DNA of 15,055 bases, from assembly GCA_027080315.1 (NCBI GenBank), contig JALWSI010000178.1, positions 1 through 15,055 of the forward strand, in the 5' to 3' direction. Every line of letters starts with the position of its first letter. Position 1 is the first letter of the stretch. The position numbers and the translations under genes are program-made. This DNA is from a bacterium (lineage in GTDB: Bacteria > Thermosulfidibacterota > Thermosulfidibacteria > Thermosulfidibacterales > JALWSI01). The notes beneath the pieces are model-generated. The model was given only the letters and a program-made list of their open reading frames with translations, was not told the origin of the DNA and did not search any database. Shown here one piece after another: positions 6,295 to 15,055 of the stretch.

Positions 6295-8424
6295 ATGGGT
6301 AGAAAGTCTGCTGGTCCCCTTCGCTTCGTGATCGCAGTGAACAACCATAAGACCACAGGAACCGGCGCCTTGGCCCTTCTGCTGGCCAAGGGTCTGAAGT
6401 TGTTGGGAGAAGAGGTGATCTTTGTGGTTGAGAAGGATGGCTCTCTTGCCCGCTCTGCCCTTGCCGCAAAGATAGAGACCGTGTGGCCTCTACTTAGATT
6501 GCCCAACCAGCTTAAAGAGGGGGATACGGTTGTTGTGTTTAGGTCAAAGGATGCTCTGTTCTCCCTTCTATCCCTGGGAATGTGGGTCACCAGGGTCAGG
6601 GTGTGGTCCCGCCTTGAGCCACCAAAGGGGTTGGAGCACCTTCTGGGCAGGTTTTTCCATCTTTTCGTTCTTCCCTCCCATGCCCTTGAATCCATGCTTA
6701 AAGGGATTCCTTCAGGGGTTTTGCCAGGTGGGGTTGATATCTCACTCTTTCAACCACGGGGCTTAAGTAGGAAGGGTGAGGCTTTAAAAGTGGGCATGGT
6801 GGCCCGTTTAAAGCCCGGCAGAGGGCATCAGAGGCTCTTGAAGGCCTCTGCCAAGCTTCCTTTTAGACATCAGGTGGTTCTTGTGGGAGACGGAGAGGCC
6901 TTTGAGGAGATTGATGAACTTGCCCGTAGGTTGAATCTATCTTCCCATCTCACCGTGGTGAGAGAGAGGGTGAAGGACTATCCGGGGCTGCTCTCCTCCT
7001 TTGATCTTCTCGTCTATCTCTCCCCGGGTTCAGATGCCACCTGCCGTACTGTTTTTGAGGCCATGGCCTGCGGGGTGCCTGTGGTTGCCGCGGCAATTGG
7101 AGATCTTGAAGGGATACTTGAGGGTTGCGGGATTGTGGTGAGGGAGAAGCTTGAGGGGGCTCTGCTTTCAATTCTCTCTTCTCCGAGAATGGGGATGAGA
7201 ATGGGGCGGTTGGGTGTTGAAAAGGTTAAGAGGAGCCACACCCTTGAAAAGCGAGCCCACAGGTTGAAGTCCCTTTTGAAGGTTAGAGAAGGGGAGAAAC
7301 GTTCCTCTCTTCATTCTGAGATGGCGGTGCTTCAGCTCATCTCTCGTAAAGGTTGCGACAGCGGCGGAGGGCTGCAGGCCCTTCAGCTTGCCTGGGCCCT
7401 GAAAAAAAGGGGGATAAAGGCTATCTTCTCTGCCAGAGGGGGAGGAAGCTGCCAGAGAAGGAGCGAAGAGCTGGGTGTGCCCTTCTTTCCCTTCCCCATG
7501 AGAGGAGAGTGGGATCTATCATCCCTCGTATCCCTTATTCTCTTATTGAGAAGGGAGGGCATAGCCCTTGTTCACGTCCACAAGGGGCTGGCCCATTCCC
7601 TGGCTCTATTTGCCAGTGTGCTGCTTACCAATCCCATATCCATAGTTGCCAACAGGGGGGTCTCTTTTGATTTAGAGCCCTGGAATTGCTGGCGTTATCA
7701 GCTTTCCTTCACAAGGGCGGTGGTGGCGGTCTCCCACTCGGTTAAGCAGACCTTGGTTAAGGACGGGTTGTTTCCAGAGAAGGTGAGGGTGGTTCCAGGT
7801 TCCGTTGATCTGCAACGGTTCTCTCCATCTCAGGGGGAAGGGGTGCGAAGAGAGCTTGAGATACCTGAAGATGCTTTTCTCGTTGGGTTCATTGCAGCAA
7901 TGAGACCGTGGAAGAACCACGTTGAGTTTGCCCGGCTCGTGGCCCCACTCATGCAGACACATCCAAACCTTCATTGTCTCTTTGCAGGCAAAGAGAAGCC
8001 CAAGATCCTGCGGGCAATGAAGAGGATTGCCAGAGAGGCTGGGGTTGAAGGTCGTTTCCACTTTCTGGGGTACCGTGAGGATCCCGAGAGGATCATTGCT
8101 GCCTGCGATCTTACTGTGAACTTCTCTTCCGAGGGAGAGGGGATGCCAGGGGTGCTAAGGGAGTCTCTGTCCTGCGGGGTGCCCGTGCTCGCAACCCCTG
8201 TGGCAGGAAATCCTGAGGTTGTGCTCTCTAAGGCTACAGGGGTGATCCTCAAAGAGGATGGAGGGGACCTGCCCGAGGCCTTGGCTCTTCTTAAGTCAAC
8301 GCCCCGGCTCCGCTTCTTGATGGGCAAGAGGGGACGCTCTTTTGTTGAAAGGAGCTACTCTGTCTCTCGCCGCATAGACAGGATGCTAAAGCTCTACCAG
8401 GAGGCGGTTGGTGAGGGAGATTAG
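6295..8424 (+). CDS. Tandem double-domain GT4 family glycosyltransferase
   Basis: This 709-residue protein holds two complete GT-B glycosyltransferase modules in one frame. Module 1 is residues 1-330, with PGGVDISLFQP near 142, the nucleotide-sugar-binding start VGMVARLKPGRG near 165, and SDATCRTVFEAMACGVPVV at 246-264. Module 2 is residues 343-709, with a Gly-rich GGGLQALQLAWAL loop near 358, PGSVDLQRF near 501, AAMRPWKN near 535, and EGMPGVLRESLSCGVPV at 615-631. Module 2 has a classical EX7E pair (E615, E623). In module 1 the first Glu is Asp (D247) while the second (E255) is kept. The family transfers a sugar from a nucleotide donor, typically in LPS core, O-antigen or capsule assembly at the inner face of the membrane; donor and acceptor cannot be told here. 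No membrane segment or signal peptide is seen. It starts three bases after glnE and overlaps the following kinase gene, which fits joint work on one glycan. Confidence 0.85.
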   Translation: MGRKSAGPLRFVIAVNNHKTTGTGALALLLAKGLKLLGEEVIFVVEKDGSLARSALAAKIETVWPLLRLPNQLKEGDTVVVFRSKDALFSLLSLGMWVTRVRVWSRLEPPKGLEHLLGRFFHLFVLPSHALESMLKGIPSGVLPGGVDISLFQPRGLSRKGEALKVGMVARLKPGRGHQRLLKASAKLPFRHQVVLVGDGEAFEEIDELARRLNLSSHLTVVRERVKDYPGLLSSFDLLVYLSPGSDATCRTVFEAMACGVPVVAAAIGDLEGILEGCGIVVREKLEGALLSILSSPRMGMRMGRLGVEKVKRSHTLEKRAHRLKSLLKVREGEKRSSLHSEMAVLQLISRKGCDSGGGLQALQLAWALKKRGIKAIFSARGGGSCQRRSEELGVPFFPFPMRGEWDLSSLVSLILLLRREGIALVHVHKGLAHSLALFASVLLTNPISIVANRGVSFDLEPWNCWRYQLSFTRAVVAVSHSVKQTLVKDGLFPEKVRVVPGSVDLQRFSPSQGEGVRRELEIPEDAFLVGFIAAMRPWKNHVEFARLVAPLMQTHPNLHCLFAGKEKPKILRAMKRIAREAGVEGRFHFLGYREDPERIIAACDLTVNFSSEGEGMPGVLRESLSCGVPVLATPVAGNPEVVLSKATGVILKEDGGDLPEALALLKSTPRLRFLMGKRGRSFVERSYSVSRRIDRMLKLYQEAVGEGD

Positions 8425-13284: not shown

Positions 13285-14313
13285 ATGAAGTCAGGATTGT
13301 CCGAAGAGTTGGTGATAGCAGTAGCAGAGGATAATGTCTCAAAGGTCAAAGAGCTTATTGCCAAAGGAGCGGATGTTAATGCCAAAAACAGCGACGGCGT
13401 AACACCGCTGTGTGCAGCGGCATATCAGGGCAATGTTGAGATGGTTAAGACCCTCATAGAGAATGGAGCCAACTTGAACGAGAAGGATGAAAAGAAAGGC
13501 TGGACGCCACTTATGATGGCAGCCGCAAATGGTGCTTTAGAGGTTGTGGAAGCCCTAATTGCCAATGGAGCGGATCCGAACATCAGAGAGGACGAAAAGG
13601 GTTGGACAGCCTTAACCTTGGCATCTGCGTTTGGCCATGCCGAAGTTGTAAAACTCCTCATTGCCAATGGAGCAGAGGTCAACATTAAAGACAAAGATGG
13701 GCTAACCCCACTAATACAAGCCTATTTATTGGACAGGTTTAATGTGGTGAAGACCCTCATCGCTCATGGGGCCGATGTGAATGAAAGGAGCCGATATGGT
13801 TCAACCCTTTTGATGTTGTCCGCTGGCGATGGACGGGCGGATATAGTTAGAGAGCTGATAGCCCATGGTGCAGATGTTAATGCTGAGGTGGAGAACGGCG
13901 AGACAGCCTTGATGGTTCCTGCTAAAAAAGGTGATCTTGAAGTGGTTAAAATTCTTGTTGAGAACGGGGCAAATGTTAATGCCAAAGCTGCCAATGGCGC
14001 TACGCCATTAATGGGTGCCTCGTGTGAGGGTCATCTGGAAGTGGTAAAGCTACTCATAGAGCATGGAGCCGATGTGAATGCAAAAACAGTGGACGGGATC
14101 ACTGCCCTGCTCATGGCGGCGGGAGAGGGTCACACAGAAGTGGTGAAAACCCTGATTGCCCATGGTGCAGATGTGAACGTCAAAACCAACGACGGGTGTA
14201 CCCCTTTGATGGCGGCGCATGATGAAGGGCATGTTGAGATAGCCCATATTTTGAAAGAGGCTGGGGCAAGAGAGAAGGAGATTAGGGTGAGAAGAGCAGA
14301 GGATGATGTGTAG
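13285..14313 (+). CDS. Ten-repeat ankyrin protein
   Basis: The 342-residue protein is almost entirely ankyrin repeats. After a short N-terminus, a capping repeat (about residues 7-36) is followed by eight internal repeats (37-302; 32-35 residues each, mostly 33) and a C-terminal repeat from 303. The consensus is DGxTPLMxAAxxGHxEVVKxLIxxGADVNAK. The tail after about 332 is short and charged. There is no signal peptide, membrane segment or catalytic domain, so it is probably a cytosolic scaffold or binding protein whose partner is unknown. Repeats 5 and 6 depart most from consensus (IQAYLLDRF; LLMLSAGDGR), which may mark a binding face. The ATG is preceded by AAGGGG with eight-base spacing. The gene stands alone between the operon and the AT-rich restriction-like gene; whether it works with that gene cannot be judged from this window. 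Confidence 0.93.
   Translation: MKSGLSEELVIAVAEDNVSKVKELIAKGADVNAKNSDGVTPLCAAAYQGNVEMVKTLIENGANLNEKDEKKGWTPLMMAAANGALEVVEALIANGADPNIREDEKGWTALTLASAFGHAEVVKLLIANGAEVNIKDKDGLTPLIQAYLLDRFNVVKTLIAHGADVNERSRYGSTLLMLSAGDGRADIVRELIAHGADVNAEVENGETALMVPAKKGDLEVVKILVENGANVNAKAANGATPLMGASCEGHLEVVKLLIEHGADVNAKTVDGITALLMAAGEGHTEVVKTLIAHGADVNVKTNDGCTPLMAAHDEGHVEIAHILKEAGAREKEIRVRRAEDDV
13303..14280 (+). repeat. Ankyrin-coding tandem repeats (about 99-base period)
   Basis: Ten in-frame units of roughly 96-105 bases repeat the ankyrin motif; for example units begin at GAC 13393 and GAC 14191. Copies differ at many synonymous sites (such as GTGGTGAAGACCCTC against GTGGTGAAAACCCTG), so the array looks old rather than freshly expanded. 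Confidence 0.85.
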
Positions 14314-14432
14314 AATCAATCTTCACAGTTCCAGAGCTCCAGTATCGTGAGCTTGAAAGGTTGAGTTATTACAAGGTAAGTATAGGCCTGAAAAGGAGAT
14401 TTTGTGTAGAATAAGGGGTTATGGAGGAAGAG
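14314..14432. other. Spacer between ankyrin and restriction-like genes
   Basis: The 119-base gap is bounded by a 10-base direct repeat TGTGTAGAAT (14307-14316, overlapping the ankyrin stop, and 14403-14412; 96 bases apart). Between the copies one frame is open for about 34 codons up to a TAA at 14412-14414, but it has no credible start with a ribosome-binding site and no recognised family. No clear promoter or terminator was found; TAGAAT inside each repeat resembles a -10 box without a matching -35. Confidence 0.4.
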
Positions 14433-15055
14433 ATGACAAAATATTGGCAAATTGCAGCAGGATCTCATGGGCGAGATTACTCAGACTACTTCCTAAAATT
14501 TGGAATGGCGTTTGTTGGGGGAGAAAACAATATAAAAACAATGATGGAAATAGATGTAGGAGATATTGTCGTTCTTAAACAAGGCATGAAGAAAATAATC
14601 GCAGCAGGGAAAGTAATAGAGAAAGATGGAAAGCATTGTGGTTCTGGTGATAAAGGGTGGTTACGAGATTTTGATGGATGGGACCTGCCGGCATATTGTT
14701 ATGTTGAGTGGAAAAAACCTAGTCAGCCAGTTTCAATAAGTGGCCTTACTAGAGCGACTATACAAAGGATACATGAGGAAAAACTTAAAAAGGCTGCTGA
14801 TAATATACTAAAAACTGGAACTGTTGTTGCTGCTGAACCAGAGCCACCAGAGACAAAAGTTGTGGACGATGATGAAATTTTGAAATTTCTAATCAAAGAA
14901 GGTTTGAGCCCTTCATGTGCTGATGAACTAACACGTGCTATATCAAGAATAAGATTGCTAGCAGATTATTATTGTAGCTATCATTGGGAGGATATTAGAG
15001 AACATGAAACAAGAACTTTTCTGGTTGTGCCTTTACTCATAGCTCTAGGTTGGGC
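14433..15055 (+). CDS. EVE/PUA-like domain protein with type I restriction HsdR_N-like domain (partial, C-terminus off the right edge)
   Basis: The frame is open from the ATG at 14433 to the window end (207 codons). That start is chosen over the ATG at 14421 because GGAGG at 14423-14427 gives it five-base spacing. Residues 1-105 resemble an EVE/PUA-like small-molecule or modified-base-binding domain: it opens with TKYWQIAAGSHGRDYSDYF, then FVGG, VGDIVVLKQG and KIIAAGKVIEKDG, and a DGWDLPAYCYVEW strand. A charged helix (about 110-135) and an acidic proline linker (about 140-153) follow. From about 155 the sequence leads to HETRTFLVVPLLIALGW, the usual opening of HsdR N-terminal and related restriction nuclease domains; the catalytic PD-(D/E)xK residues would lie beyond the edge. 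Composition is much more AT-rich than the operon (hand count 14521-14580: 17 G+C of 60, against 34 of 60 at 10501-10560), which suggests recent acquisition. A restriction or defence role is inferred. Confidence 0.75.
   Translation, partial: MTKYWQIAAGSHGRDYSDYFLKFGMAFVGGENNIKTMMEIDVGDIVVLKQGMKKIIAAGKVIEKDGKHCGSGDKGWLRDFDGWDLPAYCYVEWKKPSQPVSISGLTRATIQRIHEEKLKKAADNILKTGTVVAAEPEPPETKVVDDDEILKFLIKEGLSPSCADELTRAISRIRLLADYYCSYHWEDIREHETRTFLVVPLLIALGW

Follow-up and report, generated by a model that had tools for sequence, protein, structure and literature searches.

What does a protein do when its gene runs off the end of a contig and only its first part can be read? The window analyzed here, a stretch of exactly 15,055 bases that makes up the whole of its contig, breaks off at its right end inside such a gene. 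The sequence-only reading of this locus had noted an EVE/PUA-like opening joined to the opening of an HsdR_N-like restriction domain, and had proposed a one-protein defense enzyme that senses modified phage DNA, with its catalytic part out of view.

The truncated gene and its surroundings

The visible part of the reader-nuclease gene consists of 207 codons without interruption (Table 1), and the motifs quoted in the first reading (YWQIAAGSHGRDYSDYF, VGDIVVLKQG, and ETRTFLVVPLLIALGW) are all present in this frame. The ATG at 14433 was chosen as the start codon, the in-frame ATG at 14421 being judged less likely. As had been stated, the catalytic part lies beyond the contig end, and a search of the source assembly found the rest of the gene nowhere else. 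The truncated frame is a real coding gene, since it aligns end-to-end with about 30 homologs and is 71% identical over the visible 207 residues to its closest relative, the Desulfobacteraceae protein at locus L020. No promoter or terminator signal above chance was found around the gene.

Table 1. Features at the right-hand end of the window
Feature	Position	Strand	Basis or remark
GGAGG, likely ribosome-binding site	14423..14427	+	5 bases ahead of ATG 14433; read from sequence
Reader-nuclease gene, 5′ 207 codons	14433..15053	+	Open frame to contig end; remainder past 15055
N-terminal EVE/YTH-like (PUA superfamily) reader domain, residues 1–119	14433..14789	+	AlphaFold2 model, Foldseek, VIA-align
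Helical linker, about residues 120–182	14790..14978	+	Alignment with L020 model: helices 116–128, 146–155, 160–183
First helix of HsdR-type PD-(D/E)XK nuclease domain (HETRTFLVVPLLIALGW)	14979..15053	+	Homolog L020; catalytic strands past contig end

The gene is AT-rich compared with the operon to its left, as the first reading had observed: its GC content is 38.5% and its GC3 24.6%, against 47–55% and 55–63%, respectively, in the leftward genes. The gene immediately 5′ of it (13285–14313, + strand) encodes an ankyrin-repeat protein of 342 aa, in which Pfam finds 10 Ank matches, and its composition (GC 49%, GC3 49%) is intermediate between the left-hand operon and the AT-rich gene. Further to the left, a 709-aa protein (6295–8424, + strand) resembles two glycosyltransferases in one chain, and the next gene, at 8408, is kinase-like; both assignments were made by eye only.

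Predicted folds of the reader and nuclease domains

Reader residues 1–119 were modeled separately with AlphaFold2 from the family alignment (pLDDT 95.7, pTM 0.88). Comparisons with Foldseek and VIA-align highlight 2p5d as the top fold match (Z 12.4, rmsd 2.6, 109 aligned), followed by 1wmm (Z 11.6) and 2hd9 (Z 11.5), all three of them EVE proteins. The EVE-HNH restriction enzyme VcaM4I (6yex) aligns with a Z score of 10.8. Readers of the YTH type fit the fold nearly as well as EVE proteins, with the m6A reader YTHDC2 (9szp) at Z 10.4 and many others at Z 9–10. From this model, the domain is predicted to be a PUA-like barrel with EVE/YTH topology, belonging to the EVE/YTH branch of the PUA superfamily.

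The EVE/PUA-like opening is thus borne out at the level of fold (Z 9–12.4 to EVE/YTH PUA folds across residues 1–119), but not by a Pfam EVE match. The window protein matches no Pfam family at E ≤ 10, and EVE is absent among the Pfam families listed for 26 family members. Because identity in the fold matches is mostly 8–16% and the Pfam EVE model is unmatched, the domain is labeled EVE/YTH-like by fold. A family-profile sequence search of solved structures returned chance matches only. A shared fold shows no function, and the base that is read is not given by fold alone.

The nuclease half has to be read from relatives. The window protein stops after two conserved Glu residues and the sequence ALGW, and the assembly does not contain its D, ExK, and QxxxY residues. 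In the full-length L020 homolog (332 aa, AlphaFold2 pLDDT 93.9), the second domain (184–332) matches HsdR (3h1t) with a Z score of 11.6 and an rmsd of 2.3 over 113 residues at 21% identity, and also matches two type IIG enzymes, DrdV (Z 10.7) and BpuSI (Z 10.2). Both Glu residues of the first helix (E191 and E193) are invariant in 32 of 32 family sequences, and both are present in the window protein. Asp225 is kept in 29 of 30, and both the ExK (E245, K247) and the Q-x3-Y (Q259, Y263) residues are kept in 29 of 29. Pfam gives weak matches to HSDR_N in 13 of 26 members and to HSDR_N_2 in 8 of 26.

According to the alignment and the L020 model, the family proteins comprise reader, linker, and nuclease only. 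No helicase, translocase, or methyltransferase domain was found in the homologs, which are 315–365 aa long, and no second copy of either domain was found among neighbor proteins. The missing half of the window protein is accordingly predicted from its relatives to be an HsdR-type PD-(D/E)XK nuclease. The first reading had called the visible end HsdR_N-like, had proposed a one-protein defense enzyme, and had advised a search for a PD-(D/E)xK site; the full-length relatives hold both domains, with the nuclease domain complete and the site (D225, E245-x-K247) conserved.

Relatives and gene neighborhoods

Peptide patterns from the single sequence recovered no close relative in genome contigs or viral contigs. 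A tblastn search of plasmids identified one gene on a Photobacterium toruni plasmid (64% identity) and one in Cupriavidus metallidurans (26%), profile searches (386 genomes, then one phylum) added four full-length relatives, and a scan of genome contigs based on an alignment of three sequences yielded 25 loci. These span Desulfobacteraceae, Nitrospirota, ANME-2 archaea, Thioalkalivibrio, Verrucomicrobiota, Ignavibacteriota, Armatimonadota, Planctomycetota, Acidobacteriota, Bacteroidota, and Bacillota, among others. The first alignment scan of viral contigs found no relative and a later one a single locus; phage records contained no match. In a maximum-likelihood tree, the sequences fall into clades A, B, and C, with 14, 13, and 4 rows, respectively, and the window in clade A; the Bacteroidota member L034 sits on a long branch of unsure placement.

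The low GC content of the window gene, the scatter of its relatives, with the nearest in Desulfobacteraceae, and its absence from eight genomes of the same order speak for horizontal gain. Two relatives are broken. An IS3 element parts the first codons of the Photobacterium gene (L003, 6605–8864) from the rest, and the L030 gene (6569–7602) is split between frames, which indicates that the gene is sometimes lost or disabled.

Clades A and B have no neighbor in common beyond pairs of loci, and their genes are mostly solitary; the window itself shows one flank only. Several copies have neighbors of the defense type. The gene is adjoined by GmrSD and Schlafen AlbA_2 genes at L020, by genes for a GmrSD_N and a TIR-like/Mrr_cat protein at L031, and by a YhcG nuclease gene at L023. 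It lies within type I RM operons at L026 (HsdM, HsdS, and HsdR, with a GmrSD_N protein) and L034. At L033 (Acidobacteriaceae, 1840–16402), a clade B copy has PglZ-like and BrxL genes on one flank. The SspC and SspD families are present among the neighbor proteins (PADLOC), and are probably placed at L033, judging from ORF sizes and order. What had been named as evidence against a defense enzyme was the lack of a nuclease, methylase, or ATPase domain, the lack of an EVE/PUA fold, and housekeeping neighbors; a nuclease domain, an EVE/YTH-type PUA fold, and defense genes beside relatives were found instead.

Among the other genes at these loci, the L031 protein (1801–2649) combines a TIR-like N-terminus with an Mrr_cat restriction domain, and divergent genes on the other flank at L033 resemble a PAPS-reductase-like protein and a large ATPase. 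A clade B copy on an IMG/VR contig, a predicted provirus (L059, 447–12229), is apparent cargo, with two serine recombinase-like genes and tail-like genes around it as judged by eye. The PADLOC models matched at E ≤ 1e-15 numbered 252 for the 103 proteins within 2.5 kb and 26 for the 79 proteins more than 5.5 kb away, figures that count redundant models, not genes, and give a rough indication only. Many copies have no defense gene in view, and most have no DNA methyltransferase in view.

The arrangement in clade C is fixed. In 4 of 4 genomes, the reader-nuclease gene lies directly between genes for a DNA (N6-)methyltransferase and a DUF499 ATPase. In one of them, DUF499 is upheld by Pfam (E 5.5e-13), and the methyltransferase has a weak N6_N4_Mtase match and a DPPY motif. 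These operons are BREX-related/Hma systems (PMC12839542). In genome G108, a SNF2-type helicase with a nuclease-like C-terminal segment, read from its sequence, is encoded upstream, and the EVE-nuclease there would therefore be an additional nuclease. A search for PF04465 (DUF499), positive in Thermotoga maritima as a control, gave no match in the source genome of the window (94% complete, 253 contigs). Membership of the window gene in a BREX-related (BR) operon was ruled out on this ground.

Proposed function and relation to known systems

The family, the clade of the window included, probably represents stand-alone modification-dependent (type IV) restriction endonucleases. Its most likely role would be defense by one protein against phages with modified DNA. 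The EVE/YTH-like N-terminal domain would bind DNA and flip a modified base into its pocket, base flipping by an EVE domain having been shown for VcaM4I (PMC7897488). The HsdR-type PD-(D/E)XK C-terminal domain would then cut the DNA nearby, probably as a dimer, and the enzyme would work without NTP. Host DNA without that modification would be spared, so that no cognate methyltransferase would be needed. The expected outcome is phage restriction, with the unseen half of the gene presumably intact in the source genome. Enzymes such as VcaM4I have been described as orphan single genes, often in defense islands (PMC7897488), a description that suits clades A and B.

Several points favor the type IV reading: the predicted folds, the catalytic residues conserved among relatives, the scattered distribution, the mostly solitary genes, the defense genes beside several copies, and the copy in a predicted provirus. 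Against it stand the many copies without a defense gene in view, the unmatched Pfam EVE model, the low identity (8–16%) of the fold matches, the unseen catalytic half of the window gene itself, and clade C, which is always beside a methyltransferase that an orphan type IV enzyme would not need. It is tempting to speculate, though doubtful, that the gene is a portable cassette, alone in two clades, a fixed part of BREX-related methyltransferase-ATPase operons in the third, and beside BREX-like or type I systems in single cases. There it would destroy phage DNA modified in a way that overcomes the host system, and the base could be m6A, read in the YTH manner, not a modified cytosine.

The main rival to the type IV reading has the protein serve as an accessory nuclease to systems based on methylation (type I RM, BREX/Ssp-like, or DUF499 BREX-related): its reader would inspect the host system's mark or the absence of that mark while the nuclease acts with the system, and solitary copies would use marks made elsewhere in the genome. 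The invariable place of clade C between methyltransferase and ATPase genes argues for such a role, as do the two copies inside type I RM operons, the L033 copy adjoining PglZ-like and BrxL genes, and the close fit of m6A-reading YTH proteins to the reader. However, clades A (that of the window) and B lack a conserved neighbor, the source genome lacks DUF499, and at most copies no DNA methyltransferase is in view. This explanation suits clade C better than the clade of the window, and for the family it is unlikely.

A nucleic-acid-triggered suicide nuclease or RNA-directed nuclease, in which binding of the PUA-type reader to modified RNA or to host DNA would lead the nuclease to kill the infected cell, is very unlikely. 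The PUA superfamily includes RNA readers such as YTH, and EVE domains are also known from toxin-antitoxin settings (PMC7641849), but the nuclease half resembles the DNA restriction enzymes HsdR, DrdV, and BpuSI, and the gene has no conserved antitoxin-like neighbor. Least probable is that the gene in the source genome is a remnant, truncated or frameshifted past the contig end and no longer functional, as the Photobacterium and L030 genes might suggest, given that its visible codons are uninterrupted, align end-to-end with intact relatives, and follow a good ribosome-binding site.

Type IV enzymes of this general design have been foreseen. In Bell, Wolf and Koonin 2020 (PMC7641849), EVE-, YTH-, and DCD-PD(D/E)XK fusions are predicted to be type IV enzymes, and stand-alone EVE genes beside DUF499 operons are noted. 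The EVE-PD(D/E)XK enzymes described there likewise join a PUA-superfamily modified-base reader to a PD-(D/E)XK nuclease and have defense associations; the family here has an HsdR-type nuclease and a reader fold between EVE and YTH. VcaM4I shares the N-terminal reader fold and is also a small, modular, single-gene enzyme, its gene being an orphan as those of clades A and B mostly seem to be, but its nuclease is HNH and not PD-(D/E)XK. The type I HsdR nuclease domain (3h1t; EcoR124I) has the same nuclease fold and D...ExK...QxxxY residues, whereas the family here has no SWI2/SNF2 translocase and no HsdM/HsdS requirement, and carries a reader domain in front. In the DUF499-centered BR/Hma systems (PMC12839542), clade C is a fixed extra gene; clades A and B, in contrast, lie outside such operons.

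The family is therefore probably an uncatalogued one, of the kind that Bell et al. had foreseen. Its less ordinary part is the constant position of the clade C gene within DUF499 operons, which suggests a second defense layer within those systems. Small one-gene enzymes whose cutting of DNA depends on base modification help to map modifications and reveal the phage modifications that bacteria encounter.

No full-length model of the family was present in the copies of Pfam, NCBIfam, and PADLOC searched, and no paper describing it was found among texts that were mostly open-access main texts. The PADLOC candidate PDC-S02 shows profile similarity to clade B members (E down to 3e-8) over ~60 reader residues, but leaves the nuclease unmatched, as it does clade A members scanned singly. 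It was rejected as a family name because the match spans part of the reader only, and 'mad2' of MADS was rejected on account of a weak and short match. One annotated record was found, which names the family by its nuclease half only.
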